Origin: Bradyrhizobium sp. WBOS07
Lineage (GTDB): Bacteria > Pseudomonadota > Alphaproteobacteria > Rhizobiales > Xanthobacteraceae
Direction of reading: 5' to 3'
DNA: 64,000 bases
Assembly: GCF_024585165.1 (NCBI RefSeq)
Contig: NZ_CP029008.1
Span: forward strand, 5,289,501-5,353,500
Shown: piece after piece, positions 24,260 through 39,298 of the stretch
Layout of the letters: the number at the start of each line of letters is the position of its first letter
Numbering within the stretch: position 1 is the stretch's first letter
The notes under the pieces: generated by a model
Seen by the model: the letters and a program-made list of their open reading frames with translations, nothing else
Told to the model about the DNA's origin: nothing
The model's database searches: none
Made by a program: the position numbers and the translations under genes

Positions 24260-24301
24260 GCGCAATGAGATCGAGCCCGACTGTCGCCAAGGAAAAGGTG
24301 C

Positions 24302-24462: not shown

Positions 24463-24542
24463 ACTAGACCGAGTTCGGGGTTGACTTCGATCTCACCAAT
24501 GATCGTCCGGTGTAGTTAAGAGTATCAGGCAGGGCAGGGGGC

Positions 24543-25181
24543 ATGGCAGCAGACATCTCGCGGGCCGGGGTCGAGAAGGCCTATGGCCGCTGGGCGCCGG
24601 TCTATGATCTCGTGTTCGGCAAGGTGTTCGACGCCGGACGGCAGTCGACCATCGCCGAGGCCGACCGCATCGGCGGCCGCGTCCTCGACGTCGGCGTTGG
24701 CACCGGGCTGTCGCTGTCCGATTATTCGCGCACCACCAAGATCTGCGGCGTCGACATTTCCGAGCCGATGCTGCGCAAGGCGCAGGCGCGCGTGCGCACG
24801 CTTCGGCTCTCCAACGTCGAGGTGCTCTCGGTGATGGATGCGAAGAACCTCGCCTTCCCATCAGACTTCTTCGACGCGGTGGTGGCGCAATACGTCATCA
24901 CCGCCGTGCCCGATCCCGAGGGCACGCTCGACGAGTTCGTGCGGGTGCTCAAGCCGGGCGGCGAGCTGATCCTGGTCAACCACATCGGCGCCGAGAGCGG
25001 TCCGCGCAAATTGTTCGAGCTCGCCTTCGCGCCGATCGCCCGCCGCCTCGGCTGGCGCCCGGAATTCCCGTGGGCCCGGCTCGAGGGCTGGGCGGCCAGG
25101 CACGGCGGCATCACATTGGCCGAGCGCCGCCCCATGCCGCCGATGGGGCACTTTTCGCTGATCCGCTACCGCAAATCGTGA
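24543..25181 (+). CDS. SAM-dependent methyltransferase, phosphatidylethanolamine N-methyltransferase (PmtA)-like
   Basis: A 212-aa class I methyltransferase. Motif I is VLDVGVGTGLSLSDY, the acidic residue of motif II is in GVDISEPMLRKA, and later motifs FPSDFFDAVVAQYV and VLKPGGELILVNH follow. The N-terminus VEKAYGRWAPVYDLVFGKVF is characteristic of the Rhodobacter/rhizobial PmtA group, which makes phosphatidylcholine from phosphatidylethanolamine. GCAGGG precedes the ATG. A ubiquinone/menaquinone-type methyltransferase is the alternative. Confidence 0.82.
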   Translation: MAADISRAGVEKAYGRWAPVYDLVFGKVFDAGRQSTIAEADRIGGRVLDVGVGTGLSLSDYSRTTKICGVDISEPMLRKAQARVRTLRLSNVEVLSVMDAKNLAFPSDFFDAVVAQYVITAVPDPEGTLDEFVRVLKPGGELILVNHIGAESGPRKLFELAFAPIARRLGWRPEFPWARLEGWAARHGGITLAERRPMPPMGHFSLIRYRKS

Positions 25182-25225
25182 TCATGCCGCGGGAACACGC
25201 GCCGAGGCCGGCGCGTTCCCTCCCC

Positions 25226-25582
25226 ATGCGCACGACATCAAACATCATCCTGGCCAGCCTGCTGATCGCCGCCTCTGCACCGGCGATCGCGCAGGCTCCG
25301 CCCGCCCCGGCGACGCCGCCGCAAGCGACCGCGCCGCCATCCCCGCAACGTGCCGCCGGCTGTGCCCCATCCGACCGGCTCGCCACCACCCCGGACGGCA
25401 CCACCACCGGCCAGTCCCGGGAACCGCTCGGCGACAAGCTCGCCAAGACCGACGGCGTGCTCTGCCCGCCCTCGGGTGTCGATCCCGACATGCACGCCCC
25501 CGCGCCCAGCACCGGGGCCAACACCCCGGTCATCCCGCCTCCGGGCAGCCCGGGCGGCGACCCGAACGTGCGGCCGAAATAG
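25226..25582 (+). CDS. Exported Pro-rich hypothetical protein
   Basis: A 118-aa protein with a clear signal peptide (MRTTSNIILASLLIAASAPA, cleavage near AIAQA). A Pro/Ala-rich mature part follows, with CAPSDRLATTPDGTTTGQSR and one more Cys (LCPPSG). The start at 25226 puts the signal peptide at the N-terminus; an in-frame ATG at 25184 adds a 14-residue basic extension. It follows the methyltransferase by 44 bp. No known domain is recognised. Confidence 0.7.
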   Translation: MRTTSNIILASLLIAASAPAIAQAPPAPATPPQATAPPSPQRAAGCAPSDRLATTPDGTTTGQSREPLGDKLAKTDGVLCPPSGVDPDMHAPAPSTGANTPVIPPPGSPGGDPNVRPK

Positions 25583-25603
25583 GCCTCGCTGCCATCCCCT
25601 AAC

Positions 25604-25693
25604 GACCGTCATGCCCGGGCTTGTCCCGGGCATCCACGTTCTTGGTGACGCAAAGCAAGGCGTGGATGGCCGGGACGAGCCCGGCCGTGACGA
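25604..25693. repeat. Palindromic REP-like element
   Basis: Contains ATGCCCGGGCTTGTCCCGGGCAT, given here as arms ATGCCCGGG / CCCGGGCAT, followed by CCACG...CGTGG and GGCCGGGACGAGCCCGGCC. Nested inverted repeats of this kind are common intergenic elements in Bradyrhizobium. It could also stop the preceding transcript. Confidence 0.6.
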
Positions 25694-25850
25694 ACTCATT
25701 GAAAAGAGGCCGTATTCACAAGGCGGCTTCCCCCGTCATAGCCTTGCCGAGGGCTGAAAAAGCCGGCCGCTTTGCTTGACTTCCCGCCGCCCCCTTCCTT
25801 ATATGCCGCGCGTTCGCGAGATCGGCCTCATTCGCCGCCGCGATCCCTGT

Positions 25851-25927
25851 GGCGGGGTAGCTCAGCTGGTTAGAGCACGGGAATCATAATCCTGGGGTCG
25901 GGGGTTCGAGTCCCTCCCCCGCTACCA
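25851..25927 (+). tRNA. tRNA-Met (anticodon CAT), elongator type
   Basis: A full cloverleaf is drawn by GGCGGGG/CCCCGCT acceptor arms, D-arm GCTCAGCTGGTTAGAGC, anticodon stem CGGGA/TCCTG with loop ATCATAA and a T-arm with TTCGAGT; CCA is encoded. The anticodon is CAT. The acceptor stem lacks the mismatched C1 of initiators. The Ile2 (lysidine) isoacceptor shares CAT but the body looks like elongator Met. Confidence 0.92.
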
Positions 25928-26079
25928 AGCACAGCCAAGCAGCTGATATTCCTGAGAATCTAGTGCGATCGGCCCCCTGCCGACCGGTTGCATCATGCTC
26001 GTCGCATCGCTCTCGTGGCTGCTGGCGACCCGCGCCGCTCGCACTGCATCGATCCGCAATCAGGTGCAGCGTGTTGGAA

Positions 26080-26532
26080 ATGTCCGACCATCTTGAACTC
26101 GCAGTGCTTCATCGGAGCGGCGGCGGAAGCCCCGCGAAGAAGGAACGGTACACGTTCGATTTTGTCGTCAACGGGCAATCTCTCTTTGCTGTCACCGGTG
26201 CTGCCAGCTTCGATTTGGCCGGTTGTCTTTCGGTCCCTCAACGAGAGCCCGAGCTTTCCCTTCGCTTCAACGACGAACTCGCGCAACGTCTGACGGCCGT
26301 TCCGATCGGCGGGAGTTACCGCGTAGCTCTGTATGTTTGTCCGGAATGCGGAGATCTCGCGTGCGGAGCAATCACGGCGCTCGTGTCGCGGAGCGACGGC
26401 GTCGTGCATTGGTCCGAGTTTGCGCACGAGAACGGAGATGACAGCGAGGCCAAAATCTCAACGGTCGGCCCCTTCGCGTTCGACTGGACATCGTACGTGG
26501 CTGAAATAGAACGAGCTTGCGCTGCACGATAA
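26080..26532 (+). CDS. Conserved hypothetical protein with Cys motif
   Basis: A 150-aa predicted soluble protein without signal peptide. A CPECGDLACGAITALV motif sits in the middle and GPFAFDWTSYVAEIERA near the end; I recall similar CGDxxCG / GPFxFD patterns in hypothetical proteins of other bacteria but cannot name a function. The Cys trio could bind metal. I place the start at MSDHLELAVLHRSGG; the frame is open to 25963, but that part overlaps the tRNA downstream region and looks non-coding. GC is somewhat lower than in neighbours. Confidence 0.6.
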   Translation: MSDHLELAVLHRSGGGSPAKKERYTFDFVVNGQSLFAVTGAASFDLAGCLSVPQREPELSLRFNDELAQRLTAVPIGGSYRVALYVCPECGDLACGAITALVSRSDGVVHWSEFAHENGDDSEAKISTVGPFAFDWTSYVAEIERACAAR

Positions 26533-26885
26533 CGGGTAGAACACTTGCGAAACCCATCACGCTTTACGTCGGGTGGTATCGATGGGTTTCGCTTCACTCT
26601 ACCGCTCATGCGGGGCTGGCCGCTCTCCATCTGTTGATGCGCAAGATCATCCGTGCTGCGGCGGAATGGAGCTCCCGTCGCACAGTCCGCTATTGCTCTC
26701 TGCCTTGATGGCCGGCATCCTCGGATCAATCGCGCGGAAAAGCGACCCCGACGAAGGTCCGGCGCGAGGGGAGGTGTGGGCCATGTTGGCGTTGCGGATC
26801 GTCGTGCAGCCCAGTGCGCCCGAATTGATGCTCGCTCCCACCGTGGAGGCGTTCGCCCCAAAATGTCCAAGGAAGGAAGCACGCG
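26533..26885. other. Intergenic, no gene seen
   Basis: About 350 bp between the hypothetical protein and the sugar isomerase gene. Reading frames here are short and without ribosome sites. It presumably carries the promoter of the isomerase-dehydrogenase operon. Confidence 0.5.
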
Positions 26886-27941
26886 ATGAGGATGATCAAA
26901 GGGCCTGCGATATTTCTCGCTCAGTTCGCGGGCGATGCGGCGCCGTTCAATTCGCTCGATGCAATCTGCGGATGGGCGGCCTCGCTGGGCTACAAGGGGA
27001 TTCAGATTCCGAGCTGGGACGGGCGGCTGTTCGACCTGACCAAGGCCTCGGAGTCCCAGAGCTATGCCGACGAGGTGAAGGGGATTGCGGCGCGACACGG
27101 CCTTGCCATCACCGAGCTGTCGACCCATTTGCAAGGCCAGCTCGTCGCCGTTCACCCGGCCTATGATGCGGCCTTCGACGGCTTCGCCGCGCCGGAGGTG
27201 CGTGGCAACCCCAAGGCCCGCACCGAATGGGCGGTGGATCAGGTCAGGCGCGCCATCCTGGCGTCGCGGCGGCTCGGGCTCAGCGCCCAGGCGACGTTCT
27301 CCGGCGCGCTGGCCTGGCCCTACGTCTATCCCTGGCCGCAGCGTCCCGCCGGCCTGATCGAGACCGCCTTCGACGAGCTCGCCAGGCGCTGGCGGCCGAT
27401 TCTCGACTATGCCGACGAGCAGGGTGTCGATCTCGCCTACGAGATCCATCCTGGCGAGGACCTTCACGACGGTGTCTCCTACGAAATGTTCCTCGAACGG
27501 GTGAACAACCATCCGCGCGCGAACCTGCTCTACGATCCCTCGCACTTCGTGCTGCAACAGCTCGACTATCTCGACTACATCGACATCTACCACCAGCGCA
27601 TCAAGGCGTTTCACGTCAAGGACGCCGAGTTCAATCCGACCGGCCGCCAGGGCGTCTATGGCGGGTTCCAGAGCTGGGTCGACCGCGCCGGCCGCTTTCG
27701 CTCGCTCGGCGACGGCCAGGTCGATTTCGGCGCAATCTTCTCCAAGCTCACGCAATACGATTACGGCAGCTGGGCGGTGCTCGAGTGGGAGTGTGCCCTG
27801 AAACACCCCGAGCAAGGCGCGCGCGAGGGCGCCGAGTTCATCCGCAACCACATCATCGAGGTGACGGAGAAGGCCTTCGACGATTTCGCCGGCAGCGGTA
27901 CCGATGCGGCCGCCAACCGCAAGATGCTCGGCATCTCCTGA
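26886..27941 (+). CDS. Sugar phosphate isomerase/epimerase (xylose isomerase-like TIM barrel)
   Basis: A 351-aa AP_endonuc_2/xylose-isomerase-like TIM-barrel protein. Metal-binding residues are visible in DLAYEIHPGEDLHDG (Glu), LLYDPSHFVLQQLDY (Asp/His), IKAFHVKDAEFNP and VLEWECALKHPEQG (Glu). AAGGAAGCACGCG precedes the ATG. Cotranscribed with the Gfo/Idh dehydrogenase 15 bp downstream, it probably acts in catabolism of a cyclitol or unusual sugar. The substrate is unknown. Confidence 0.87.
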   Translation: MRMIKGPAIFLAQFAGDAAPFNSLDAICGWAASLGYKGIQIPSWDGRLFDLTKASESQSYADEVKGIAARHGLAITELSTHLQGQLVAVHPAYDAAFDGFAAPEVRGNPKARTEWAVDQVRRAILASRRLGLSAQATFSGALAWPYVYPWPQRPAGLIETAFDELARRWRPILDYADEQGVDLAYEIHPGEDLHDGVSYEMFLERVNNHPRANLLYDPSHFVLQQLDYLDYIDIYHQRIKAFHVKDAEFNPTGRQGVYGGFQSWVDRAGRFRSLGDGQVDFGAIFSKLTQYDYGSWAVLEWECALKHPEQGAREGAEFIRNHIIEVTEKAFDDFAGSGTDAAANRKMLGIS

Positions 27942-27956
27942 ACGAAAGGCTGCAAC

Positions 27957-29132
27957 ATGGCGATCGAAGCAAGCGGTGAAACCGGCGGCCATCGCCGCAT
28001 CCGTCTCGGCATGGTCGGCGGCGGCCAGGGCGCGTTCATCGGTGCCGTCCACCGCATTGCCGCGCGCATCGACGACCAGTTCGAGCTGGTGGCCGGCGCG
28101 CTGTCGTCGGATCCAATTCGCGCCAAGACCTCCGCGAAGGAGCTCGGCATCGCCGACGGCCGGGCCTATGGCTCGTTCGAGGAGATGGCGCAGGCCGAAG
28201 CGGCGAGGGCGGACGGCATCGAGGCGGTCGCGATCGTGACGCCCAATCATATGCATAGCCCGGTCGCGAAAGCTTTCCTGGGAGCCGGCATCCACGTCAT
28301 CTGCGACAAGCCGCTGACCACGACCGTTGCCGAGGCCGAGGAACTGGTGGCGCTGGTCAGGAAGACGGGCCGGATCTTCGTCGTCACGCACAATTACACC
28401 GGCTATCCCATGATCCGGCAGGCCCGCGCCATGGTCGCGAACGGCGATCTCGGCGAGATCCGTCTCGTCCAGGCCGAGTATCTGCAGGATTGGCTGACCG
28501 AGCCATTGGAGGCCACCGGCCAGAAGCAGGCGGCATGGCGCACGGACCCGTCCCGGTCCGGCGCCGGCGGGTGCATCGGCGACATCGGCACCCACGCCTA
28601 CAATCTCGCCTGCTTCGTCACCGGGCTCGAGCTCGACGCGCTGCTCGCCCAATTGTCGACCTTCGTCGAGGGCCGGCGGCTCGACGATGACGTGCAGATC
28701 TTCCTCAAGTGGAAGGGCGGCGCCAAGGGCATGCTGTGGGCGAGCCAAATCGCCGTCGGCAACGAGAACGGGCTCAAGCTGCGCGTCTACGGCAGCAAGG
28801 GCGGTCTCGAATGGGCGCAGGAGAATCCGAACCAGCTCTGGTTCACGCCTTACGGCAAGCCCAAACAGCTACTGACCCGCGGCGGCGCCGGTGCATCGGG
28901 CGCGGCGGCGAGGGTCACTCGCATCCCGTCGGGGCACCCCGAGGGCTACCTCGAGGGCTTCGCGACGATCTATGCCGAGGCGGCGCGCGCCATCCGCGCG
29001 GCCGCGGCCGGTGAAGAGCCGCCGCCCGACGTTATCTTTCCGACGGTCGAGGATGGCCTCGCAGGCGTGAAGTTGATCGATGCCGCGGTGAAATCGTCTG
29101 CGGGCAACGGCGTCTGGGTTCGGATGACCTAA
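27957..29132 (+). CDS. Gfo/Idh/MocA-family oxidoreductase
   Basis: A 391-aa NAD(P)-dependent sugar or cyclitol dehydrogenase. The N-terminal Rossmann motif is RLGMVGGGQGAFIGAVHR, followed by the family EKP-equivalent HVICDKPLTTTVAEAEEL and a catalytic-domain segment with GGCIGDIGTHAYNLACFVTG (Asp/His pair). It is translated 15 bp after the isomerase gene. Myo-inositol-like substrates are common in such pairs; nothing here proves one. Confidence 0.9.
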   Translation: MAIEASGETGGHRRIRLGMVGGGQGAFIGAVHRIAARIDDQFELVAGALSSDPIRAKTSAKELGIADGRAYGSFEEMAQAEAARADGIEAVAIVTPNHMHSPVAKAFLGAGIHVICDKPLTTTVAEAEELVALVRKTGRIFVVTHNYTGYPMIRQARAMVANGDLGEIRLVQAEYLQDWLTEPLEATGQKQAAWRTDPSRSGAGGCIGDIGTHAYNLACFVTGLELDALLAQLSTFVEGRRLDDDVQIFLKWKGGAKGMLWASQIAVGNENGLKLRVYGSKGGLEWAQENPNQLWFTPYGKPKQLLTRGGAGASGAAARVTRIPSGHPEGYLEGFATIYAEAARAIRAAAAGEEPPPDVIFPTVEDGLAGVKLIDAAVKSSAGNGVWVRMT

Positions 29133-29450
29133 GGCGGTCGCGATGACTTCGCTTCGTCGAGGACCGCCGAGTGAGGACAAATTGCACGGCATTCGCGTGT
29201 CGCGTCATGCGACCTCTCGCGGCGTTCTGGCTCCGCACGAACGATACATCAAATGCGAGCAAATGTGCCGCCCTACAATTCGCATTCTGCCTATGGGCTA
29301 CTTCACACATCCGAACTTTGCGGTCTCACAAATTGCTGACACGGTGCCAAGCGAGTTCCGTTGCTTTGTCTAACTCAGATTGTATGGTGGCCATAAGAGC
29401 ATTCGGCCTGATCGACGATGTGCGGCCAATCGGCGCTGTCCGCATCTTTG
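29133..29450. other. Intergenic upstream of the SARP gene, no gene seen
   Basis: Part of a 395-bp gap. Composition is more AT-rich than the flanks, and no reading frame has coding character. It separates the sugar operon from the regulator-repeat-protease cluster. Confidence 0.5.
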
Positions 29451-29464
29451 GTGATCATGATCAC
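29451..29464. promoter_or_regulatory. 14-bp palindrome upstream of SARP gene
   Basis: GTGATCATGATCAC is a perfect palindrome 64 bp before the SARP start. GGACA motifs at 29496, 29503 and 29523 follow, two of them within the 9-mer AGGACAATG. Any of these could be operators; no known consensus is matched. Confidence 0.4.
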
Positions 29465-29527
29465 AGGAAGAGTGTTCGCCCCTGAGTAGAATGAGGGACA
29501 GAGGACAATGACCGAAGGATTAGGACA

Positions 29528-30355
29528 ATGTCGCTGCTCCAGATCAATCTCTTCGGCGGTGTCGAGGTCATGCGTGCCTCCGGCGAGTCGGTGTTGATCC
29601 CCAGCCGCAAGGCTGCAACTCTCCTTGGCTATGTGGCGCTCAGTTCCCCTCGGGCCATTTCTCGCGGCAAGCTCGCGACCCTGTTGTGGGACGGTCAGTT
29701 CGGCGATCGCGCCCGCGCCAGCCTTCGACAGGCTCTGCTCACATTGCGGCGTGAATTGCCGCAATATTCCGACGTGATCGCGGCCGATCGCGACGACATC
29801 CGCATCTGCCCGAACGCCATAAGCACCGATGTCGGGGAATTCGAGCGGCTCCTGTCGGATGGAGATCCCGAACGATTGTCTCGCGCGGCGATGCTGTATC
29901 GGGGAGACCTTCTCGAGGGCATCAGTTCGACCTCATGCCAGTTCGAAGCCTGGCTGTCTGCCGAGCGCCAGCGACTGAGGACAAAGGCGATGCAGGCGCT
30001 TGCGGGCCTGCTGGACGCGGACGGGCGCGAGCACATGGACATCGCGATCGCGCTCGCGCTGCGTATCGTCGCGATCGACCCGCTTCAGGAGCAGGTTCAT
30101 CGCATCTTGATGCGCTGCTACGCGCAGCAAGGTCGCCGTACCGACGCGCTACGTCAGTACGATCTTTGCCGCTCCGTGCTGTGGCGGGACGTTCGCGCGG
30201 TGCCGGAGCAGGAGACCGAACAGCTGCAGCGCGACATCCGCCGCATGTTCCACGCTGCGCCCCTGAGACCTGCCTCGGTCAAATTACAGCGGGCCAAGAA
30301 CTTTGACGCAACTTTCACGCTCGGCGTGACGCCTGCATCACGATCCTGGTCGTAG
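29528..30355 (+). CDS. SARP/BTAD-domain transcriptional regulator
   Basis: A 275-aa regulator of the AfsR/SARP type. The N-terminal 90 residues form an OmpR-like winged helix (LFGGVEVMRASGESVLIPSR through RASLRQALLTLRRELPQ), and a BTAD helical domain covers about 95-240 (LLEGISSTSCQFEAWLSAER, IDPLQEQVHRILMRCYAQQG). No ATPase or TPR extension follows, so it is a stand-alone SARP. Such proteins usually activate adjacent secondary-metabolite genes. It is the first gene of a codirectional cluster with a repeat protein, an I9-like protein and a subtilase. Confidence 0.85.
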   Translation: MSLLQINLFGGVEVMRASGESVLIPSRKAATLLGYVALSSPRAISRGKLATLLWDGQFGDRARASLRQALLTLRRELPQYSDVIAADRDDIRICPNAISTDVGEFERLLSDGDPERLSRAAMLYRGDLLEGISSTSCQFEAWLSAERQRLRTKAMQALAGLLDADGREHMDIAIALALRIVAIDPLQEQVHRILMRCYAQQGRRTDALRQYDLCRSVLWRDVRAVPEQETEQLQRDIRRMFHAAPLRPASVKLQRAKNFDATFTLGVTPASRSWS

Positions 30356-30451
30356 CCTTAGCCGCTCGCACAATCGTGCGTAGTGATCCCGACTCCCTTC
30401 AGGGAACGCGTGTCGCTCGCGGGTCAGGCACTTCATCAGGAGACTTTGATC

Positions 30452-31633
30452 ATGACTGGAACACAGCAAGGATATGAGGACTACGGCCAATTGGACCCGC
30501 AGGGGATATTCGGCTCCATCCTCGGCGGTGCGGCCGGACGCGTTATCGGCAATCTGCTCGGCGGCAAGAGGGGAAAGAATATCGGCGGCGCCATAGGTAA
30601 CATCGGCGGAGGTTTCCTGCCGTTTTCCGCCGGTCCGGAAACGCCGCAAGCTTCTGTGCAAAATTCTGTGCAGGTCTCCGACATGGAGCTGCAGAGCTTC
30701 TGGAGCGTGCTGAAGAAGATCGGCCAGGGCGTGCAGACCGGCGTGAATATCGGTCACCAGCTCGGCGTGTTCAGCGCCGGCCAGCCCGGCCTGCAGCCGG
30801 CCGCGGCGCAAGTCTCCGACATCGAGTTGCAGAGCTTCTGGAGCGTGTTGAAGAAGATCGGGCAGGGCGTGCAGACCGGCCTCGATGTCGGCAAGCAGCT
30901 CGGCGTGTTCAACGCCGGCCAGCCTGGCCTGCAACCCGCGACGGAGCAGGTCTCCGACATGGAGCTGCAGAGCTTCTGGAGCGTGCTGAAGAAGATCGGC
31001 AAGGGCGCCCAGACCGGCCTCGACATCGGTCGGCAGCTCGGCGTGTTCAACGCCGGCCAGCCCGGATTTCAACCCGCAACGGAGCAGGTCTCCGACATGG
31101 AGCTGCAGAGCTTCTGGAGCGTGCTGAAGAAGATCGGCAAGGGCGTGCAGACCGGCCTCGATGTCGGCAAGCAGATCGGCGTGTTCAGCGCCGGCCAGCC
31201 CGGCCTTCAACCCGCGCAGGAGCAGGTCTCCGACATGGAGCTGCAGGGCTTCTGGAGCGTGCTGAAGAAGATCGGCAAGGGCGTGCAGACCGGCATCGAT
31301 GTCGGCAAGCAGATCGGCGTGTTCAGCGCCGGCCAGCCCGGATTTCAACCCGCGCCGGAGCAGGTCTCCGACATGGAGCTGCAGAGCTTCTGGAGCGTGC
31401 TGAAGAAGATCGGCCAGGGCGCCCAGACCGGCCTCGACATCGGTCGCCAGCTCGGCGTGTTCAACGCCGGCCAGCCCGGCCTGCAGCCGGCTGCGGCGCA
31501 GGTCTCCGACATGGAGCTGCAGAGCTTCTGGAGCGTGCTGAAGAAGATCGGCCAGGGTGCCCAGACCGGCCTCGATATCGGTCGGCAGCTCGGCGTCTTC
31601 AACGCCGGCCAGCCCGGTGGCACGATGCACTAG
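30452..31633 (+). CDS. Seven-repeat protein with Gly-zipper N-terminus; possible peptide polyprotein
   Basis: A 393-aa protein that I do not recognise as any named family. Residues 1-74 are Gly-rich with GxxxG steps (IFGSILGGAAGRVIGNLLGG). From residue 75 there are seven tandem 46-residue units. Each has a helix-prone cationic amphipathic core (FWSVLKKIGKGVQTGLDVGK) and ends in AGQPG plus a QPAxxQVSDMELQ linker. The last unit is cut short at AGQPGGTMH. The core resembles cecropin-type peptides in layout (aromatic start, KKIGKG, Gly hinge). No signal peptide is present. AGGAGA precedes the ATG. The neighbouring subtilase could cut the linkers; this is inference. Confidence 0.75.
   Translation: MTGTQQGYEDYGQLDPQGIFGSILGGAAGRVIGNLLGGKRGKNIGGAIGNIGGGFLPFSAGPETPQASVQNSVQVSDMELQSFWSVLKKIGQGVQTGVNIGHQLGVFSAGQPGLQPAAAQVSDIELQSFWSVLKKIGQGVQTGLDVGKQLGVFNAGQPGLQPATEQVSDMELQSFWSVLKKIGKGAQTGLDIGRQLGVFNAGQPGFQPATEQVSDMELQSFWSVLKKIGKGVQTGLDVGKQIGVFSAGQPGLQPAQEQVSDMELQGFWSVLKKIGKGVQTGIDVGKQIGVFSAGQPGFQPAPEQVSDMELQSFWSVLKKIGQGAQTGLDIGRQLGVFNAGQPGLQPAAAQVSDMELQSFWSVLKKIGQGAQTGLDIGRQLGVFNAGQPGGTMH
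30674..31633 (+). repeat. Seven tandem 138-bp coding repeats
   Basis: Units start at 30674, 30812, 30950, 31088, 31226, 31364 and 31502, exactly 138 bp apart; the seventh ends at the stop codon. Copies are near-identical at the DNA level, differing mainly at positions encoding Q/K, V/A, D/N and L/I. This points to recent amplification or gene conversion. Units 6 and 7 are the most alike. Confidence 0.95.
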
Positions 31634-31695
31634 ACCCAACGCGCGGAGGGCGGGCGAACGCCCGCCCTCCACGCACAGATGACAAGGGAAACCAG

Positions 31696-31926
31696 ATGGC
31701 GGATTCAAACACGTCGCAGCAATTCATCGTGCAGGGAGACCCGGTCCAATCCGGTGAGCTCAACGACCACTTGCAGCGTGAACCCGACGTGAAGCGAGTC
31801 GCGCAGGTCGCACCCGACGTCGTCATTCTTGCGATGACGAAGACACAGGCCGACCGCCTGAAATCGAGGTTTGCCACGCTCGTGGTTGAACCGGATTCGG
31901 CGCTGAAGCCGTTCGATGCCGACTGA
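31696..31926 (+). CDS. Small inhibitor-I9-like protein (subtilase propeptide domain in trans)
   Basis: A 76-aa protein, QQFIVQGDPVQSGELNDHLQ onward, ending VVEPDSALKPFDAD. The pattern FIVQ ... V.RV..V.PDVVILAMT..QAD.L ... VEPD is that of the peptidase inhibitor I9 domain, which normally folds and inhibits subtilisins in cis. A similar segment is present in the N-terminal region of the protease encoded 47 bp downstream. This protein is therefore a candidate inhibitor, chaperone or self-protection factor. GGGAAACCAG precedes the ATG. Identification is by pattern, not search. Confidence 0.7.
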   Translation: MADSNTSQQFIVQGDPVQSGELNDHLQREPDVKRVAQVAPDVVILAMTKTQADRLKSRFATLVVEPDSALKPFDAD

Positions 31927-31973
31927 TTTCTGTGGGCAAACATTGGACACGCAAAACATCAAGGAGGCCGCAG

Positions 31974-33920
31974 ATGGCCACGAGAGGAAAATCAGGACCT
32001 TCCGCACAGGGCGAGCACGGTGCGAACGAAGCGGCGACAAACGGCAACGGCGCGATTCCCGAGCATGGCGACAGCCCGTCACCGGCACGCGGGCAGGGGG
32101 CCGCAACGATCGCACCGCGCCCGGCGCAATTCATGATCGCGCCGCAGCAGCAACCCGGGCTTGCGACCTTCAGCATCGATTTTCTGACCCAGCAGCTCAC
32201 CAGCAGCCCCGACATCGAAGTGGTGAAGACGGTGCCTGCGCCGCGCCTGTTCGGATTTCAGAGCGCAGATCTCGGACAAGTGCCGCTCAGTCCGCTGGTC
32301 CTCGCCAAGATGACTCCCGACAAGGCCAGGGTGCTGCAGACCCAGGCGGGAGAGCGTTGCGCGGTGGAGCGTGACGAGCGGCTGACCTACATGCTCGACC
32401 CGACGACGCCGCAGCTTCCCAATCCGGGGGTGCTGACGCCGCTGGCCGACGGCTTCACTGTGACCATCGAAGTCCTGGGCCAGGACGGCCCGCTGCCCGG
32501 CGCCGAGGTTTATGTGTTCGGCAGCATGTGGCCGGCACAGGCCATCACCGACGCCACGGGCCGCGCCACGGTGACGCTCCAAGGCGAAACTCCCGAGACC
32601 ATCCGCTCGATCCTGGTCAAGCCGAAGATCGACTACTGGACCTTCTGGCTCGATCGTCCGCAGCTCGTTCCCAACAATGTCAACCGGATCGTGGTGAGGG
32701 CGCTCGGCGCAGTCTTGCGAAGCTTCCCCGGCCAGCAATTGACCGGTTGGGGTGAGCGCGCCATGGGCCTCGATCGCGTTCCGCCGTCCTTTGATGGCGC
32801 CGGTATCAAGATCGCGGTCATCGATTCCGGCCTGGCGCCGACCCATCGCAACCTGCGCGGCATTACGGAAGGCACCAGCATCGTCGGCAATGACAAGGCG
32901 GCCTGGACCGTCGACACGATCGGCCATGGCTCGCATTGCGCTGGGATCATCGCCGGCGGCCCCATCGGCTCCGGCGGCGGAATCCGCGGCTTCGCTCCCG
33001 CGGCGGAAATCCATGTCTGCCGCATCTTCCCGGGCGGCCGGTTCAGCGATCTCGTCTCGGCGCTCGATTATTGCATGGAGCATGGCATCGACGTCGCCAA
33101 TATGAGCCTCGGTGGCGGCGAGCCCTCGCGGATCATCGAGGAACGAATCGTCCGCGCCAAGGAAAGGGGCATGGCCTGTATCATTGCTGCGGGGAATTCC
33201 TCGGGGCCGGTGCAGTTTCCGGCTTCGACGCCGCATTGCCTGGCGGTCGCCGCGTTGGGCAAGTGGGGCGAGTTTCCCGAGGATAGCTACCATTCGCAGC
33301 AAGCCCTCGACGGTTTCCAGAGCCGCGATGGATATTTTCCGGCCAAGTTCTCCTGCTTCGGGCCGGAGATCGACGTCTGTGCGCCGGGTGTGGCGATCGT
33401 CTCATCGCTTCCCGCCGATGGTTTCGGTGCATGGGACGGTACCTCGATGGCGACGCCGCATGTCACCGGCCTGGCCGCGCTTGTGCTGGCGCACCATCCG
33501 GACTTCACCAAAGGCAGCTTCCAGAATCGCGATGCACGCCGGGTCGAGCGGCTGTTCCAGATCCTGAAGGAAACCGCCACGCCGCTGCAATTCGGTGACC
33601 CGAATCGTGCCGGCGCGGGACTGCCGAACGCGATGCGGGCGCTCGGCCTGGAAACCGGAATCGCTCCGGTTGCCGCCGCTGCGTCTGGAACCGATCCCTC
33701 GCTGGCAGCGCTGCGTCGCCTGCTTGGATTGCGGCCGGTCGAAGCGCCGAGCATGATTCCGGCGGGCGCGATGACGCCACAGTCCATTGGTCCCATGCCG
33801 AACGGTTCGAGCCACGTCGCGCGCGGTCCGGCCCATGTCGCCAATGGAATCGCCCCCATGATGATGGATCCCGATCCAGCTCAGATCCGGCAGCTCATGC
33901 ACAAGGTCGGATTGCTGTAA
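31974..33920 (+). CDS. Subtilisin-like serine protease (peptidase S8) with N-terminal prodomain-like region
   Basis: A 648-aa subtilase. The triad is Asp284 (KIAVIDSGLAP), His318 (GHGSHCAGIIAG) and Ser491 (WDGTSMATPHVTG), with the oxyanion Asn408 in IIAAGNSSG. Residues 60-145 contain an I9-like prodomain (FLTQQLTSSPDIEVVKTVPA ... LAKMTPDKARVLQ). Residues 160-230 look like a small beta-sandwich domain (FTVTIEVLGQDGPLPGAEVY). About 90 Ala/Pro/Met-rich residues follow the catalytic domain. No classical signal peptide is visible; the start MATRGKSG is fixed by AAGGAGGCC. It closes the SARP-repeat-I9 cluster, so the repeat protein is a plausible substrate. Confidence 0.92.
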   Translation: MATRGKSGPSAQGEHGANEAATNGNGAIPEHGDSPSPARGQGAATIAPRPAQFMIAPQQQPGLATFSIDFLTQQLTSSPDIEVVKTVPAPRLFGFQSADLGQVPLSPLVLAKMTPDKARVLQTQAGERCAVERDERLTYMLDPTTPQLPNPGVLTPLADGFTVTIEVLGQDGPLPGAEVYVFGSMWPAQAITDATGRATVTLQGETPETIRSILVKPKIDYWTFWLDRPQLVPNNVNRIVVRALGAVLRSFPGQQLTGWGERAMGLDRVPPSFDGAGIKIAVIDSGLAPTHRNLRGITEGTSIVGNDKAAWTVDTIGHGSHCAGIIAGGPIGSGGGIRGFAPAAEIHVCRIFPGGRFSDLVSALDYCMEHGIDVANMSLGGGEPSRIIEERIVRAKERGMACIIAAGNSSGPVQFPASTPHCLAVAALGKWGEFPEDSYHSQQALDGFQSRDGYFPAKFSCFGPEIDVCAPGVAIVSSLPADGFGAWDGTSMATPHVTGLAALVLAHHPDFTKGSFQNRDARRVERLFQILKETATPLQFGDPNRAGAGLPNAMRALGLETGIAPVAAAASGTDPSLAALRRLLGLRPVEAPSMIPAGAMTPQSIGPMPNGSSHVARGPAHVANGIAPMMMDPDPAQIRQLMHKVGLL

Positions 33921-33942
33921 CGCGCGTCCTTGTGGCCTTGAA

Positions 33943-33979
33943 CGCGGGGCACGGCACCAGCTGTGCCCCGCGCGTTTTC
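33943..33979 (+). terminator. Terminator after the subtilase gene
   Basis: CGCGGGGCAC and GTGCCCCGCG form a 10-bp stem around a 10-nt loop, followed by CGTTTTCT. It starts 22 bp after the protease stop and marks the end of the SARP-repeat-I9-S8 cluster. Confidence 0.8.
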
Positions 33980-35002
33980 TGACGCGGAGCGATCATTGCG
34001 ACAGCTTCACGAAATCTGAAAATTTCAGATTTCGTACCAGCGAGGCTGACATGGCGAGTATGCTTCGTTGGTGCTTTGGGCGACACCAAATGCCCTGTGT
34101 CGCCACGCCGTCAACCCCTCGCCGCAAAAATATTCCTCTTTACCGAAATTCGGAAATGGCGTATGTGTCGGCCATCCCGGCTCACCAGGAGGGGCGATCT
34201 CGAGGTCGTCTTGATCGCGAGCCGGGCTTGCGGTGGACGCGGCAGCGTCGGCATGAGAGGTGCGGGCAGGGCGGGTAGTCCCTGTGAGCCCGTGGCCGCG
34301 TGTAGACGAACGGCGCTGCCAGGCTTCGTCTCGTCTGTAAGTTTCGCAGCTTCGTCGACAGGGCTGGGAATACTGCAGGTGAAATGGCGGGCCGTGCGTA
34401 CGGCAAAACCGTGTGGTCCTGGCCGTCGTTGCTACGGTCAAGCCGGATCGAAGATGTGCGCGAGCCCAACCGGGCGGACGGCATCGTCAATTCGAACGGC
34501 GAGGGAGGCCAGAAGGACATTCGGCTCCCGGGAGAGCGCGGCATAAGCCGTCCGACCATCGCGCAGGGAAGGCCGAGTGATCGGCACCACCTGTATGCTG
34601 CTGTGCGGTTCTTCTGCGTGTGCATTTTGCGCAGCAGACCGCGGGTGCGTTGTCAGCACCCGGCCTTCCCTGCGCCCTCTTGGATATAAGGGTGCGAAGA
34701 TGAAGCAAAGCTCGGGCGAATTCAGCCGCGAGAACGAGAAGGCGTGTCTATGAGTCGAGGTATCTGCCACAAACGCGATCTCGTAGGGTGGGCAAAGCGC
34801 AGCGTGCCCACGCGCCTATCGCCGCATCGGACAGATCGTGGGCACGGCGCAAGGGCGCCTTTGCCATCCTACGGCTGTGCGGTTCTTCTGCGTGTGCATT
34901 TGCCTCTTGAACGAGAGGGTGAAGTGGTCAAGCAAAGCTCGGGCGAAAATCGTCGCGAGGCTGCGAAGTCGTGCCCCAATCCCTGAACTCCCTACACAGC
35001 CA
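33980..35002. other. 1-kb gene-free region with repeat remnants
   Basis: Several overlapping open frames exist on both strands, but none has coding-like composition, a ribosome site or a recognisable product. Contents I can support are a 27-bp perfect direct repeat (34601-34627 and 34875-34901), each copy followed by a diverged second block (34696-34744 and 34920-34974), and a REP-like inverted pair (34782-34874). It looks like a decayed or repeat-scrambled spacer. Confidence 0.6.
34782..34874. repeat. Inverted pair of the GTAGGGTGGGCAAAG REP-like element
   Basis: CGTAGGGTGGGCAAAGCGCA at the left and GGCGCAAGGGCGCCTTTGCC ... CCTACGG at the right form one inverted pair. It is the same family as the two pairs at 12468-12680, though the right arm has lost a base match (CCATCC for CCACCC). 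Confidence 0.75.
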
Positions 35003-37468
35003 TCAGCGTCCGAGAGCCGCGTGATCCAGCACGTCTCCCTGGCCGCTTCGGCTCATGTCTTCAGTTTTGCCGGCATTCTGCTCGGCTTCGTACACGACGC
35101 CGATGGTCCGGAGGATGCTGGACGGATTGACGCTGATCGAGTCGATCCCAAGCCCGGCCAGAAACCGTGCGATCTCCGGATAGTTCGCCGGTGCCTCGCC
35201 GCAGATGCCGATATGGCGGCGGTTGCGCTTGGCGCCGTCGACGGCGAGTCTCAGCATTTCCAGCATGCCGGGATCGCGCTCGTCGAAGTCGAAGGCGACG
35301 ATGTCGGAATCCCTGTCGACCCCAAGCGTGAGCTGGGTCAAATCGTTCGAGCCGATCGAGAAGCCGTCGAACAGCTCCGCGAACCGGTCGATCAGGATGA
35401 CGTTGTTGGGAATCTCGCACATCACGTAGATCTCGAGCCCGTTCTCGCCCTGCTTCAGCCCCTGCTGGGCCATGGTCTGGATGACATTGCGGGCTTCCTC
35501 GACGCGCCGGCAGAACGGAATCATGACCTTCAGGTTGGTCAGGCCCATGTCGTTGCGGACCCGCCGCAAGGCGGCGCATTCCAGTGCAAAGCCCGCGGCA
35601 TAGGCGGGGTGGGCGTAGCGGGCCGCGCCGCGGAAGCCGAGCATCGGGTTCTCCTCCCGCGGCTCGAAATCGGCGCCGGCTGTGAGATTGGCATATTCAT
35701 TGGTCTTGAAATCGGACAGGCGAACGATGACCGGACGCGGGAAGAACGCGGCCGCGATCGTACCTACGCCCTCCGAGAGGCGCTCGACGAAGAAGTCCGA
35801 GGACTTCCTCCAGCGCCGGGTGATCTGCTCGATCAATCGCCGGTCCTTGGCGGATTTCACCTGCTTCGGCTTTGCCAGCGCCATGGGGTGAATGCCGATG
35901 TGCTGGTTGATGATGAATTCCATGCGCGCCAGGCCGACGCCGTCGTTCGGCATCATGGCGGTCTTGAAGGCGAGCTCTGGATTGCCGAGATTGACCATGA
36001 TCTTGGTGCGCGGCTTCCTCAGTGCCGCGGTCGCGACTCGCTCGACGTCGAAGGGCAGGCGGCCGGCATAGACATGGCCGATGTCGCCCTCGGCACAGGA
36101 TACGGTCACGTTGGTGCCGGTCTTCACCTTCCTGGTGATGCCTTCGATCCCGACCACGGCGGGAACGCCGAGCTCGCGGGCAACGATGGCGGCATGGCAG
36201 GTCCGGCCGCCATGCTCGGTGACGATCGCGGCAGCGATCTTCATGACCGGCTCCCAGTCCGGGCTGGTGGCCGGCGCGACCAGGACCTCGCCCGGCTTGA
36301 AGGCGCGCAGATCCTGCTTCTTTCTAATCAGCCGGACCTTGCCGGCCGCGATCTTCTCGCCGACGGCGCGGCCTTCGCCGAGCACCGCCGCGGCATTCGG
36401 CTTGAGCACATAGTTCTCCAGCGCCTCGGGCGTGCGGCGGGATGCAACCGTCTCGGGCCGGGCCTGGATGATATAGAGCTTGCCGTCGGTGCCGTCCTTG
36501 GCCCATTCGACGTCCATCGGTCGCGGATGTCCCGCCTTGTTCGAGTAATGATTCTCGATGACGATCGCGCTCTCGGCAAGGCTGAGGACATCGTCGTCCG
36601 AAATGCAAAGACTCTCGCGCTCGCGGCGCGACGTCGGCACGTTGCGCGTGGTGGTGCGACCCCGCGCATAGATCATCTTCTTGTCCTTGGCGCCGATCCG
36701 GCGCGACAGCACCGCGCGGAAGCCTGCGTTGAAGGTCGGCTTGTGGACATAGAACTCGTCCGGCTCGACGGCGCCCTGCACGATGTTCTCGCCCAACCCG
36801 TAGGCGCCGGTCACGAACACCACGTCGCGAAACCCGGATTCCGTATCGAGCGTGAAGATGACGCCGCTGGACGCGAGGTCCGACCGGACCATCTTCATCA
36901 CGGCGACTGAAAGCGCGACCTTGAAATGATCGAAGCCGTTGTCGATGCGATAGGAGATCGCGCGGTCCGTGAAGATCGAGGCAAAGCAGCGGCGGCAGGC
37001 CTCGAACAGCGCGCGCGCGCCGCGGACGTTGAGAAAGCTGTCGTGCTGTCCGGCGAAGCTCGCGTTCGGCAGGTCCTCGGCGGTGGCCGAGCTGCGGACT
37101 GCCACCGCAACGTTCGGCCCGTATTCCTGCTCGAGCTGCCGATAGGCCTCCGCAACCTTCTGCCTGAGGTCGGCGAGGTCCGTCGCGGCGTACACGATGT
37201 CCCGCGCCGCGGCACCCCGCCGGGCGAGGTCAGCGATATGCCGCTTGTCGAGACCCGCAAGCAGCTTGCGCAACTCTTCCCAGGCGCCTTGCTGCAGGAG
37301 GGCGGCGCGATAGGCGGCAGCCGTCAGCGCAAAGCCGTTCGGCACCGAGATGCCGCGCCGCGACAACATGGAATAGAGCTCGCCGAGCGAGGCGGTCTTG
37401 CCGCCGACCATGCCGACATCGTCCAGGCCGAGATCCTCGAACCAGCGAACGTAGGGGTTGCCGCTCAT
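35003..37468 (-). CDS. ppsA: Phosphoenolpyruvate synthase
   Basis: An 821-aa enzyme that converts pyruvate, ATP and water to PEP, AMP and Pi. The N-terminal ATP-grasp domain starts with FEDLGLDDVGMVGGKTASLG and has VAVRSSATAEDLPNASFAGQ. The phosphohistidine swivel domain carries GGRTCHAAIVARELGVPAVV. The C-terminal PEP/pyruvate barrel ends with GICGEAPANYPEIARFLAGL. GGAGCAAAGAT precedes the ATG at 37468, so I use MSGNPYVRW. Lying 108 bp after a PfkB kinase gene on the same strand, it fits control of the lower glycolysis/gluconeogenesis flux. Confidence 0.94.
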   Translation of the reverse strand: MSGNPYVRWFEDLGLDDVGMVGGKTASLGELYSMLSRRGISVPNGFALTAAAYRAALLQQGAWEELRKLLAGLDKRHIADLARRGAAARDIVYAATDLADLRQKVAEAYRQLEQEYGPNVAVAVRSSATAEDLPNASFAGQHDSFLNVRGARALFEACRRCFASIFTDRAISYRIDNGFDHFKVALSVAVMKMVRSDLASSGVIFTLDTESGFRDVVFVTGAYGLGENIVQGAVEPDEFYVHKPTFNAGFRAVLSRRIGAKDKKMIYARGRTTTRNVPTSRRERESLCISDDDVLSLAESAIVIENHYSNKAGHPRPMDVEWAKDGTDGKLYIIQARPETVASRRTPEALENYVLKPNAAAVLGEGRAVGEKIAAGKVRLIRKKQDLRAFKPGEVLVAPATSPDWEPVMKIAAAIVTEHGGRTCHAAIVARELGVPAVVGIEGITRKVKTGTNVTVSCAEGDIGHVYAGRLPFDVERVATAALRKPRTKIMVNLGNPELAFKTAMMPNDGVGLARMEFIINQHIGIHPMALAKPKQVKSAKDRRLIEQITRRWRKSSDFFVERLSEGVGTIAAAFFPRPVIVRLSDFKTNEYANLTAGADFEPREENPMLGFRGAARYAHPAYAAGFALECAALRRVRNDMGLTNLKVMIPFCRRVEEARNVIQTMAQQGLKQGENGLEIYVMCEIPNNVILIDRFAELFDGFSIGSNDLTQLTLGVDRDSDIVAFDFDERDPGMLEMLRLAVDGAKRNRRHIGICGEAPANYPEIARFLAGLGIDSISVNPSSILRTIGVVYEAEQNAGKTEDMSRSGQGDVLDHAALGR

Positions 37469-37576
37469 ATCTTTGCTCCGCATTGCAGTCGAGGGCGCCG
37501 TCGGGACGCGATCCTGACCGGCAATGTGGCGGGAGGCGGGGTGTACGGTGTTGCGAAAGATCAATGGCGGCTTCAG

Positions 37577-38536
37577 CTAGGTTTCTTCGATCACCACCTG
37601 CTCGGCCAGCCGTTCGACATCCGCGGTCCGGCACAGCTCGGTGCCGGGATGGAGCAGGGCAGCGGCGCCCGCTGCCATGGCGTAGCGGAAGGCGGCGCCC
37701 AGATCGGTGCCGGAGGCGAGCCGCAGCACCAGCGCGCCGAGAAAACTGTCACCGGCCCCGACGGCGCTCAGCGGCTTGATCGGCAGAGACTTCGCTTGCC
37801 ATGTGCGGTCCCGGGTCACCAGCGCCGCGCCGAGATGTCCCATGGTCAGCGCGACGATCGACGCTTGCCGCGTCTCGACGATGCGTCGGGCGGCCGCCAC
37901 CCATTCACCGGCGTCCTGAGGTTCAGTTCCCGTCAATTCACGCATCTCGCGCAAATTTGGCTTGATCAGGTCGACGCCTTCGGCGACTGCCGCGGCAAGC
38001 GCCGCGCCTGACGTATCGAGAATGATCTGGGATCCACGCCGCTTGGTGATCGCCGCCAGGCGCGCATAGAAATCGTCGGGCACTCCGCCCGGCAAGCTGC
38101 CGCTCGCGACCACAATTCGGGGAAAAGGATCGAGCGAGGCGATCAGCTGCAGGAACTCCGACCATTCGCGGTCAGTGAGTGTCGGCCCCGGAAGGATGAA
38201 GCGGTATTGCAAAGCAGTTGACTGCTCGTGGACAAAGAAATCCTCCCGCGTCTCCCCCGCGATCGGGAAAGTCTGGCTGTCAACGCTCTCCGCGTCGAGC
38301 AGGCGGCGCAGCAGATCGCCCGTCCCGCCGCCCACCGGATAGATCGCGCGCACGCCGCGGCCGCCGAGCCGCTTGATCACGCGCGCGACATTGATGCCGC
38401 CGCCGCCAGGGTCGCGCCGCTGCGAGGTGCCGCGCAACTTCGCGACGGGAACGATCTTTTCGACCGAAGTCGACACATCGACCGCGGGATTGATCGTGAC
38501 GGTGGCGATGTCCGGCATGAGCTTGTCTGTGTCCAC
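37577..38536 (-). CDS. PfkB-family phosphofructokinase (1-phosphofructokinase / 6-phosphofructokinase 2 type)
   Basis: A 319-aa ribokinase-fold sugar kinase. The N-terminal motif RDPGGGGINVARVIKRLGG and the C-terminal anion-hole/catalytic motif PLSAVGAGDSFLGALVLRLA are clear. ATVTINPAVDVSTSVEKIVP is typical of the PfkB/FruK/LacC group. The most similar pattern is E. coli PfkB-type, often found next to universal-stress or PEP synthase genes in low-oxygen regulons; here ppsA follows. An alternative start is MPDIATVTINPA, 6 codons in. Confidence 0.88.
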   Translation of the reverse strand: MDTDKLMPDIATVTINPAVDVSTSVEKIVPVAKLRGTSQRRDPGGGGINVARVIKRLGGRGVRAIYPVGGGTGDLLRRLLDAESVDSQTFPIAGETREDFFVHEQSTALQYRFILPGPTLTDREWSEFLQLIASLDPFPRIVVASGSLPGGVPDDFYARLAAITKRRGSQIILDTSGAALAAAVAEGVDLIKPNLREMRELTGTEPQDAGEWVAAARRIVETRQASIVALTMGHLGAALVTRDRTWQAKSLPIKPLSAVGAGDSFLGALVLRLASGTDLGAAFRYAMAAGAAALLHPGTELCRTADVERLAEQVVIEET

Positions 38537-38841
38537 TTGGAGTCAGAATATCGTCCCGCAAGGATGGGCCAGCCTGGAGCGCTCATCTGCCTTCGATTAG
38601 CCTCGCAGGATATCCCGGCAGGGCAGCGCCAGTTTAATCTGGATCAAAGCCGATGTTGCGCCGTCGGTCGGTTGAAGAATCGAACCGAGGAGTCTTTGCC
38701 GCAAGGCGCGACTAGGAACTCCGGGCGCGCCCGGCGCTTGAATCGGCGGGCCAGAGTCGCCGTCGATTGCTGGCCTGCACGGCCCGCCTCCAAAGCCCCC
38801 ATGCCCCCCAGGGTGGGCCGTGCGTCACCAGAGGAGACACC
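38537..38841. other. Intergenic, no gene seen
   Basis: A roughly 300-bp gap between the divergent pfkB-like and DUF2934 genes. It must hold both promoters. I see no repeat or clear operator. Confidence 0.45.
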
Positions 38842-39003
38842 ATGTCCGATCCGACCGAGCAAGAGATCAGAGAACGCGCGCACCGCCTGTGGGAGCAGGC
38901 CGGCAAGCCTGAAGGCCGCGACGACGAGTTTTGGCAGGCCGCCGAGCAGGAGCTGCGCAACGAGGACAAGTCCAATACGTTGCGGACGCCGGACACGTTG
39001 TGA
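38842..39003 (+). CDS. DUF2934 small protein
   Basis: A 53-aa protein, MSDPTEQEIRERAHRLWEQA and onward, whose RAHRLWEQAGKPEGRDDEFWQAAEQEL core is the DUF2934 pattern. GAGGAGACACC lies before the ATG at 38842. The stop overlaps the GTG of the next gene (GTGA), so the two are translationally coupled. Function of the family is unknown. Confidence 0.82.
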   Translation: MSDPTEQEIRERAHRLWEQAGKPEGRDDEFWQAAEQELRNEDKSNTLRTPDTL

Positions 39004-39185: not shown

Positions 39186-39298
39186 ACAGGGGCGGCCCGT
39201 TTCCCGCGCGATGCGAGCCCGCGGCTCGGGGAACAGAGCATCCCGGACGGGCATTCAGTGTCTGAACAGCACGGGCTCCAGAATATTTTCCCACGGCA

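Follow-up and report, generated by a model that had tools for sequence, protein, structure and literature searches.

What is produced by an operon in which the gene for a tandem-repeat protein lies next to those for a subtilase and a small partner protein? This question is raised by a locus in Bradyrhizobium sp. WBOS07, in the 64,000-nucleotide stretch analysed here as the window (contig NZ_CP029008.1, positions 5,289,501 to 5,353,500), which comes from a 6.73 Mb genome assembled as a single contig. Four codirectional genes on the forward strand code for a SARP-type regulator, the repeat protein, a small protein and the subtilase, with gaps of 96, 62 and 47 bp between them and a hairpin at the 3' end (Table 1). 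A first-pass annotation had suggested a secreted or self-processed polyprotein cut into small peptides by the adjacent protease and switched on by the SARP. It is proposed here that the operon encodes a ribosomally made multi-peptide precursor, the 393-residue repeat protein being a string of membrane-seeking units: a single Gly-zipper peptide, then seven amphipathic/Gly-zipper helices that are nearly identical to one another. The co-encoded subtilase would cleave after the Phe which closes each unit, at [LFVI]-x-[PVIL]-F/x-A-G (the slash marks the predicted cut). The 76-residue small protein would be a detached copy of the pro-domain of the protease. With its C-terminal L-K-P-F placed in the active site like a cleavage product, it would restrain the protease, and may aid its folding, until the peptides are wanted. 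Cutting after Phe under the control of the small protein is, judged from the sequences, probable though by no means assured.

The repeat protein contains the predicted products. TRF reported an array at 30670-31617 with a period of 138, 6.9 copies, 89% matches and a score of 1439, by far the strongest of the five arrays reported across the window (the runner-up scores 80). On direct reading the protein begins with an N-terminal block of 73 residues, after which come seven units of the type QVSDMELQSFWSVLKKIGQGVQTGLDIGRQLGVFNAGQPGLQPA, six of them 46 residues long and one 44. The first-pass annotation had seen seven repeats joined by flexible linkers. The seven units stand, but the separate linkers do not, as they are the unit boundaries themselves (FxAGQPGxQPA), and the description was incomplete, as residues 1-58 form a separate Gly-zipper unit (DPQGIFGSILGG...IGGGFLPF). 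Cutting at every junction would release residues 1-58 (58 residues), residues 59-107 (49 residues), six peptides of 46 residues and a 10-residue tail.

It was found that unrelated unit types end in a common motif, [LFVI]-x-[PVIL]-F/x-A-[GD]. Helical units end in L-G-[VIL]-F followed by x-A-[GD]. Among 136 helical units of 26 proteins, a count which omits 7 of the 33 rows (P0010, L011 twice, L013, L014, L017 and G662), [LVIF]G[VILM][FLM] is present in 125, with Phe in 119 of these, and 106 fit a stricter junction pattern that also asks for A, S, V or T and G, D or E after the cut. For single Gly-zippers the junction FLPF or LLPF/xAG(P) was found in 23 of 25 rows (19 with Phe and 4 with Leu), some of the rows being fragments and the search pattern itself requiring F or L. 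In tandem Gly-zipper proteins the junction is present at 8 of 8 positions in the genome G662, where each unit ends in LLPFEAGP, at 4 of 4 in G064 and at 2 of 2 in G1260 (one LLPL, one LLPF). The unit bodies of G064 have drifted and the ends are kept (FLPFEAGP, FLPFEAAP, VLPFEAAP and ILPFDAGP). The position after Phe varies (S, D, E, Q or N), and Ala fills the second position after it in 41 units of a selected set of 44. This set holds only non-identical units that carry G[VILM][FLM], taken from a choice of 11 proteins, a selection that favours the boundary columns. The pattern [LFIV]x[PVIL]FxA[GD] matches once in 48,433 background residues as compared to eight times in the 393-residue repeat protein; the background was made with a simple gene caller from 14 sources, consists of proteins of at least 100 residues (at least 60 for the comparison of endings) and leaves out proteins with strings typical of this system. 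Subtilisins favour a large hydrophobic residue at P4 and an aromatic residue at P1, and the L or F at P4 and F at P1 of the unit junctions fit these preferences. There is good support in these alignments for a subtilase that would cut after Phe at every unit boundary. As a separate observation, a 187-residue protein encoded near the gene set at locus L133 (2677-3240) starts with MSVGSLNSIGGGSAAGSPFSAGPSE and carries a junction-like PFSAGP, possibly by chance; its relatives in L024, L027 and L031 (cluster c16, by clustering) had been missed by string search.

The small protein appears to have the fold b-a-b-b-a-b. In hhalign, small proteins match the N-terminal domain of the subtilase at 96% and E 3e-9, with the tails in register. 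By this profile comparison it is a paralogue of the subtilase's own pro-domain. The tail Phe is invariant in all 25 aligned rows, the short P0020 being omitted from the alignment, and five divergent lineages end in LTPF, LSPF, LSLFD, LRF and LQY. A strict ending, L-x(1,2)-[FY]-x(0,3), fits 17 of the 18 distinct small proteins from the loci (that of L032 has five residues after Phe) and is found in 12 of 175 background proteins. The tail Phe or Tyr presumably lies at the P1 position, where it is placed by register with the propeptide tail of subtilisin BPN'. Taken at the sequence level, there is good support for the small protein as a putative product-like inhibitor of the subtilase, which it may also help to fold. 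The first-pass idea of a polyprotein cut by the adjacent protease is thus partly borne out and is strengthened by the conserved gene set, the shared junction motif and the matching small-protein tail, and it gains independent evidence because the putative inhibitor tail matches the junctions. Pfam gave a single chance-level row for the small protein of the window (E 0.029, below cut-off), and Foldseek gave no match at E 0.001 or better.

That one junction motif should run across unrelated unit types and be matched by the tail of a second protein is unexpected for a structural linker. This bears on the alternative that the repeat protein functions without being cut, as an aggregate or a scaffold associated with the membrane or the surface, with the subtilase and its partner serving only quality control, turnover or other substrates. 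Gly-zippers favour assembly, proteins that are structural or aggregate often have tandem repeats, Gly-zippers and Q-rich partners, and the number of units varies from 2 to 8 between single proteins (fragments included), all of which a scaffold would accommodate. On the other hand, the Phe and the second residue after it (Ala) are kept and the first residue and the linker vary, in units preselected for G[VILM][FLM]. An uncut scaffold is considered unlikely.

The last gene had been called a complete subtilisin-like protease, and this was confirmed by the Peptidase_S8 domain match and by a 31-row alignment in which H318 and S491 are invariant and D284 is near-invariant; we take these three residues to be the catalytic triad, as in subtilisin. 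The best-scoring solved relatives by sequence are also subtilisins. The AlphaFold2 model of the full subtilase has a mean predicted local distance difference test score of 44.5, and only parts of residues 50-240, which include the pro-domain-like region and the Ig-like domain, are usable. The gene is preceded by a ribosome-binding site, AAGGAGG, at 31961-31967. It was also observed that the pro-domain holds a junction-like FGAFSAG in G662 (L088 7528-9432) and G064 (L119 1061-2887) and LFGFQSAD in the window, which could, as a guess from the sequences, be a self-processing site.

Several names attached to these proteins do not hold. A HIT-domain/Ap4A-hydrolase identity of the repeat protein was dropped because the PF01230 score (whole-protein E 7e-6, above cut-off, with no single stretch passing) was taken as summed over the repeats; the relative P0009 is misleadingly labelled 'diadenosine tetraphosphate HIT family hydrolase'. 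The label 'putative ATP-grasp-modified RiPP' (ribosomally synthesised and post-translationally modified peptide) was rejected, as TIGR04186 reaches 18 bits against a cut-off of 25, and no RiPP-type ATP-grasp family was found among the ten neighbours scanned in the interval 23078-42077. Similarly, the small-protein relatives P0017, P0027 and P0028 are misleadingly named Fe3+-hydroxamate transport proteins. The repeat gene is interrupted by stops or frame changes in G029/L024 and G024/L037. In the window and in distant relatives, repeat and partner proteins often end in a small residue, one of [MLIV] and His (window 31622-31630; L144, L148, P0004, P0006, P0008, P0009 and L129), as in GTMH, PTIH, ATIH, PSLH, QAVH, GAVH, GTLH and SSVH, and this ending, which is absent in G662, L142 and P0003, may be a shared C-terminal signal.

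The gene set is conserved as a unit in Bradyrhizobium and near relatives. The repeat protein was found in 14 of the 146 genomes drawn from the genus (own genome included). Fifteen related loci were compared, 11 from Bradyrhizobium, two from Xanthobacteraceae (one a metagenome-assembled genome, MAG), one from Bradyrhizobiaceae and one from a Rhodopseudomonas palustris MAG; they represent 13 genomes, two pairs being split assemblies of one genome. The SARP gene lies upstream of the repeat gene in 13 of the 13 loci having upstream sequence, and the small gene and then the subtilase gene follow in the same order in 13 of the 13 having downstream sequence. The conserved co-occurrence expected by the first-pass annotation is thus seen in Bradyrhizobium and its near relatives; for Methylobacterium, which it also named, the sole link seen is P0005, a protein alone, named from a Methylobacterium frigidaeris MAG. 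It had further argued that repeat proteins occurring without the protease would speak against the idea. The idea withstands this argument over the loci compared: the small gene and the subtilase are kept in those 13 loci, a count that does not extend to the contexts of 11 database relatives. Flanking genes are common to several strains, so the set occupies an old position within part of the group; in other strains it lies elsewhere.

In further genomes the trio of repeat protein, small protein and subtilase is kept while the unit types change. G662, found by the family profile search, has eight tandem Gly-zipper units followed by the small gene and the subtilase, and G064, a member of the genus whose contig begins inside the gene, has a tandem Gly-zipper protein with four junctions, the small gene and the subtilase. 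In G577 and G956 a third, helical unit type (TPQGxNFxKLLKDVxxQAxKALPGLLIGLLS...SLF/DSEP in G577) stands beside the small gene and the subtilase. G1260, from the phylum outside the class, has Gly-zipper units, a small protein ending in LSLFD and a subtilase. A divergent Bradyrhizobium clade keeps the N-terminal module of the subtilase with a Q-rich repeat protein as partner and an M48 protease upstream; the Pfam assignments there come from the proteins of L129 alone. In L129 (3993-8869), and similarly in L120-L122, the order is M48 protease, Q-rich protein with QRQLSQQDVNEVVRQLVPALPQILAQAQ repeats, a DIQQLVGLLGNLMPLLLRLQSQ protein and an S8 protease; the QRQLSQQDVNEVVRQLVPALPQILAQAQ repeat of the L129 Q-rich protein resembles the C-terminal LLQQALPALQALAQ of P0001 and P0003-P0006. 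Two Streptomyces plasmids code for subtilase relatives with the same N-terminal module and Q/G-rich partner proteins, and G540 for a relative with this module and a different partner. Neither the SARP nor the small protein is universal among the related sets.

The system looks patchy and rare. Scans for the N-terminal module of the subtilase, in which the own genome is counted where drawn, gave 26 of 142 genomes of the genus, made up of 13 that have the protein with helical units, G064, and 12 whose matches are divergent or weak. The genus of G662 gave 2 of 18, the family 8 of 218 (three of the own genus, G662, G956, G577, G540 and G624), the order 3 of 297, each of them from the own genus, and the phylum 5 of 398 (three of the own genus, G1260 and a weak G1336). 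These scans scored at most 8 (phylum), 10 (order), 14 (family) or 22 (genus) first-look candidates per genome, so distant members may have escaped. One genome with both the repeat protein and a subtilase, G145 (L009), is missing from the genus matches. For the 12 divergent or weak genomes of the genus, six contexts were seen, four with a Q-rich repeat protein and two called as an opposite-strand frame. A repeat-profile search of the family matched 11 of 149 genomes, of which the own genome and G662 were read. Class-wide repeat-profile matches (39 of 385 genomes) were rejected as evidence: the own genome excepted, the matches listed span no more than 38-81 positions within the Gly-zipper part, and the three that were read, L040-L042, resemble common Gly-zipper proteins of different types. 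Plasmid-borne spread of the repeat protein gained no support, as tblastn gave no match to it in the plasmid collection.

The proposed arrangement shares features with several known systems. Cyanobactins are a bacterial case of a multi-core precursor cut by co-encoded S8 proteases, PatA/PatG, and have short, modified and macrocyclised cores. The window differs from them, its subtilase scoring 32.5 bits for TIGR03895 (PatA) against a cut-off of 421.05 and its units being of about 46 residues. Kex2 is a subtilisin-like, general-purpose protease which cuts at basic sites in the fungal secretory pathway. Fungal KEX2-processed repeat proteins hold several peptide cores per precursor with a Kex2 cut at each boundary (PMC7329392, PMC9769878 and PMC6339444). 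A multi-peptide precursor with a predicted cut at each boundary is the likeness; the co-encoded protease, the predicted Phe site and the inhibitor-like partner are what set the window apart. For the small protein, the closest parallel lies in Plasmodium SUB1-ProM, a stand-alone subtilisin propeptide-like inhibitor for which inhibition is reported (PMC6993865). There too a free pro-domain-like protein is encoded beside a subtilase, but in another kingdom and in a set without a described peptide precursor.

For the peptides themselves, Cdz of Caulobacter is described (PMC5380434) as a pair of contact-dependent Gly-zipper bacteriocins which are thought to disrupt target membranes. Like them, the predicted products of the window would be alphaproteobacterial small proteins (Cdz: 86 and 84 residues) with GxxxGxxxG Gly-zippers, as in Cdz-like and class IIb bacteriocins. 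Cdz differs in that its two small proteins have a gene each and are accompanied by genes for type I secretion and for immunity, and the passages of PMC5380434 consulted describe no counterpart of the tandem precursor, the subtilase or the pro-domain inhibitor. In haloarchaea a serine protease frees an alpha-helical antimicrobial piece from a precursor (PMC12893001); the difference is that a single N-terminal piece is released, that the extracellular protease and the precursor come from different strains, and that no repeats or inhibitor are described in the abstract. No description of the present gene set was found by searches of the open-licence PubMed Central literature; the system would join known ideas (repeat precursors, detached propeptide inhibitors and Gly-zipper peptides) in a combination without description found in that literature.

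A bacteriocin-like role is the best guess because of the Gly-zipper Cdz bacteriocins and the protease-released haloarchaeal antimicrobial. GxxxGxxxG zippers occur in both unit types of the window, 21 times in the repeat protein as compared to a shuffle mean of 2.1 and maximum of 9, a figure inflated by repetition. The helical unit of the window is more amphipathic than shuffles (hydrophobic moment 0.61, p 0.002), as are those of three relatives (p 0.003-0.011); the zipper of G662 is weakly so (p 0.025). The Gly-zipper unit of the window has a net charge of +3. By analogy, these properties lend weak support to peptides that might act on membranes as bacteriocin-like agents; given cutting after Phe under small-protein control, membrane activity has perhaps an even chance.

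Several observations weigh against the proposed system. Conservation of the junctions could be partly structural. Pfam models, I9 included, gave no match to the small proteins scanned, a comparison of small-protein profiles with PDB sequences found no propeptide, and the fold is a common ferredoxin-like arrangement, because of which the VIA list for the small protein is non-specific. In the Streptomyces plasmids, the divergent Bradyrhizobium clade and G540 the small pro-domain-like gene was not seen by eye, and the subtilase relatives have non-homologous partners. Neither the Gly-zipper unit of the window (p 0.25) nor the G577 unit (p 0.11) exceeds shuffles in amphipathicity, and the unit of the Q-rich clade is without a Gly-zipper and yet amphipathic (p 0.002). 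Helical units have a net charge of -1 to +1, whereas antimicrobial peptides are typically cationic; by eye, neither the subtilase nor the other three operon proteins show a signal peptide (no predictor was run), and no exporter or type I secretion gene was found among the ten neighbouring genes scanned. These points speak against a standard secreted bacteriocin, as does the want of a recognised immunity gene, and the 'secreted' polyprotein of the first-pass annotation is left without support. Self-action or release by lysis may be the route for the peptides.

The apparent lack of secretion signals and of a neighbouring exporter, an inhibitor-like gene preceding the protease and a regulator in the operon would suit a self-directed system, in which a protease held by its inhibitor is freed by stress or phage and the Gly-zipper peptides it then cuts loose make the membrane of the producing cell itself permeable, as in a protease-activated death system. 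PADLOC, however, matched only subtilase profiles in the operon (PDLC03014 subtilase, 1.3e-27; IetS, 1.3e-5) and gave nothing for the SARP, repeat or small protein genes, Pfam found no sensor domain in the subtilase, and many copies of one peptide suggest dose over switch. We regard such a system as quite unlikely. A role of the repeat protein as bait with many sites, or as regulator, for a subtilase whose main substrate lies elsewhere is very unlikely: eight similar candidate sites could titrate the protease and the small-protein tail resembles the same site, but the unit bodies are conserved too, the six full repeats of the window having fewer amino-acid-changing than silent differences (pN 0.076 against pS 0.219, the proportions of the two) and the Glu and Phe of E[LM][QL]xF, for instance, being invariant in the 44 selected units, where both belong to the unit-finding pattern.

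The reading preferred here, a Phe-cut precursor with a restrained protease, leads to a wider proposal that is held tentatively and with more doubt than confidence. It would be a new bacterial peptide system, in which interchangeable, unmodified, membrane-active units are carried in a polyprotein with a common Phe site and are released by a dedicated, apparently signal-less subtilase held by a detached pro-domain. The cassette would evolve freely while site, tail and protease stay matched, in at least two proteobacterial classes, with a looser, inhibitor-less form in actinobacteria. If true, this would be a bacterial version of the fungal KEX2 repeat-precursor strategy with the cutter and the off-switch in one operon, and a modular source of membrane-active peptides. 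It would make exact and cheap predictions (product masses, cut sites and the inhibitor tail) and would name a function for hypothetical proteins, some of them now labelled as HIT hydrolase or iron-transport protein. The subtilases with a pro-domain/Ig-like N-terminal module would likewise gain a use; they are traced from Bradyrhizobium to two Streptomyces plasmids.

Table 1. Coordinates of the operon, its predicted parts and its flanking signals within the window
Feature	Position	Strand	Basis
Conserved element upstream of regulator (TTGCTTTGTCTAACTCAGATTGTATGGTG), promoter candidate	29361..29389	+	Alignment of 15 upstream regions, by eye
SARP/AfsR-type regulator gene (BTAD domain), 275 aa	29528..30355	+	Pfam PF03704, 3.3e-21
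Repeat protein gene, candidate multi-peptide precursor, 393 aa	30452..31633	+	ATG 30452 start; open frame from GTG 30383
N-terminal Gly-zipper unit, residues 1-58, ends FLPF before SAGP	30452..30625	+	Invariant Gly columns; weak Pfam Gly-zipper rows below cut-off
Seven helical units	30671..31630	+	Predicted cuts after Phe 107, 153, 199, 245, 291, 337, 383 (and Phe 58)
Small pro-domain-like protein gene, 76 aa, tail LKPF-DAD (Phe 73)	31696..31926	+	Fold, homology, conserved tail
Subtilase (peptidase S8) gene, 648 aa	31974..33920	+	ATG 31974 start; Pfam PF00082, 7.7e-39
Subtilase's own pro-domain-like region	32118..32384	+	Modelled strands/helices of residues 52-133; hhalign
Ig-like beta domain of subtilase	32445..32696	+	Seven modelled strands, residues 160-240; Big_1 below cut-off
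Terminator-like hairpin	33943..33972	+	13 pairs, 11 G-C, T run

The first-pass picture of four codirectional genes ending at a terminator agrees with the coordinates and with the strong hairpin. The evidence for the terminator is the strength of this hairpin and not the number of such sites, because two were found as compared to 2.9 expected in shuffles. Besides the BTAD domain, the regulator has a row for Trans_reg_C, the N-terminal OmpR-type DNA-binding domain, at 19.9 bits, under the cut-off of 26.2. The TTGCTTTGTCTAACTCAGATTGTATGGTG element is present in 13 of the 15 upstream regions (the window, nine close relatives, L035, L036 and L037) and not in L132 and L032; a scan with the sigma-70 consensus found no site. 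As a BTAD gene that is retained throughout the Bradyrhizobium form, the regulator gene is consistent with an activator. A LuxR-type gene lies behind the protease on the opposite strand in G662, G064 and G540. From this gene order the SARP likely regulates the operon in the window and is not part of the core system, because a LuxR-type gene adjoins the trio in G662 and G064; the earlier suggestion that the operon is switched on by the SARP could hold at most for the Bradyrhizobium form.

Among the surrounding genes, a MacAB-like set (ABC ATPase, permease, HlyD-like and Sel1-type, by reading of sequence) faces the subtilase in convergent orientation in four (L033, L037, L135 and L136) of the 21 loci compared and is possibly an exporter or a chance neighbour. 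A tRNA gene (Rfam) lies at 25851-25924, about 3.6 kb upstream of the operon. The window also contains two adjacent DUF2934 genes (38767-39003 and 39299-39595), and relatives of the second were seen near the gene set in 8 of 21 loci, the window included and some genomes counted twice.

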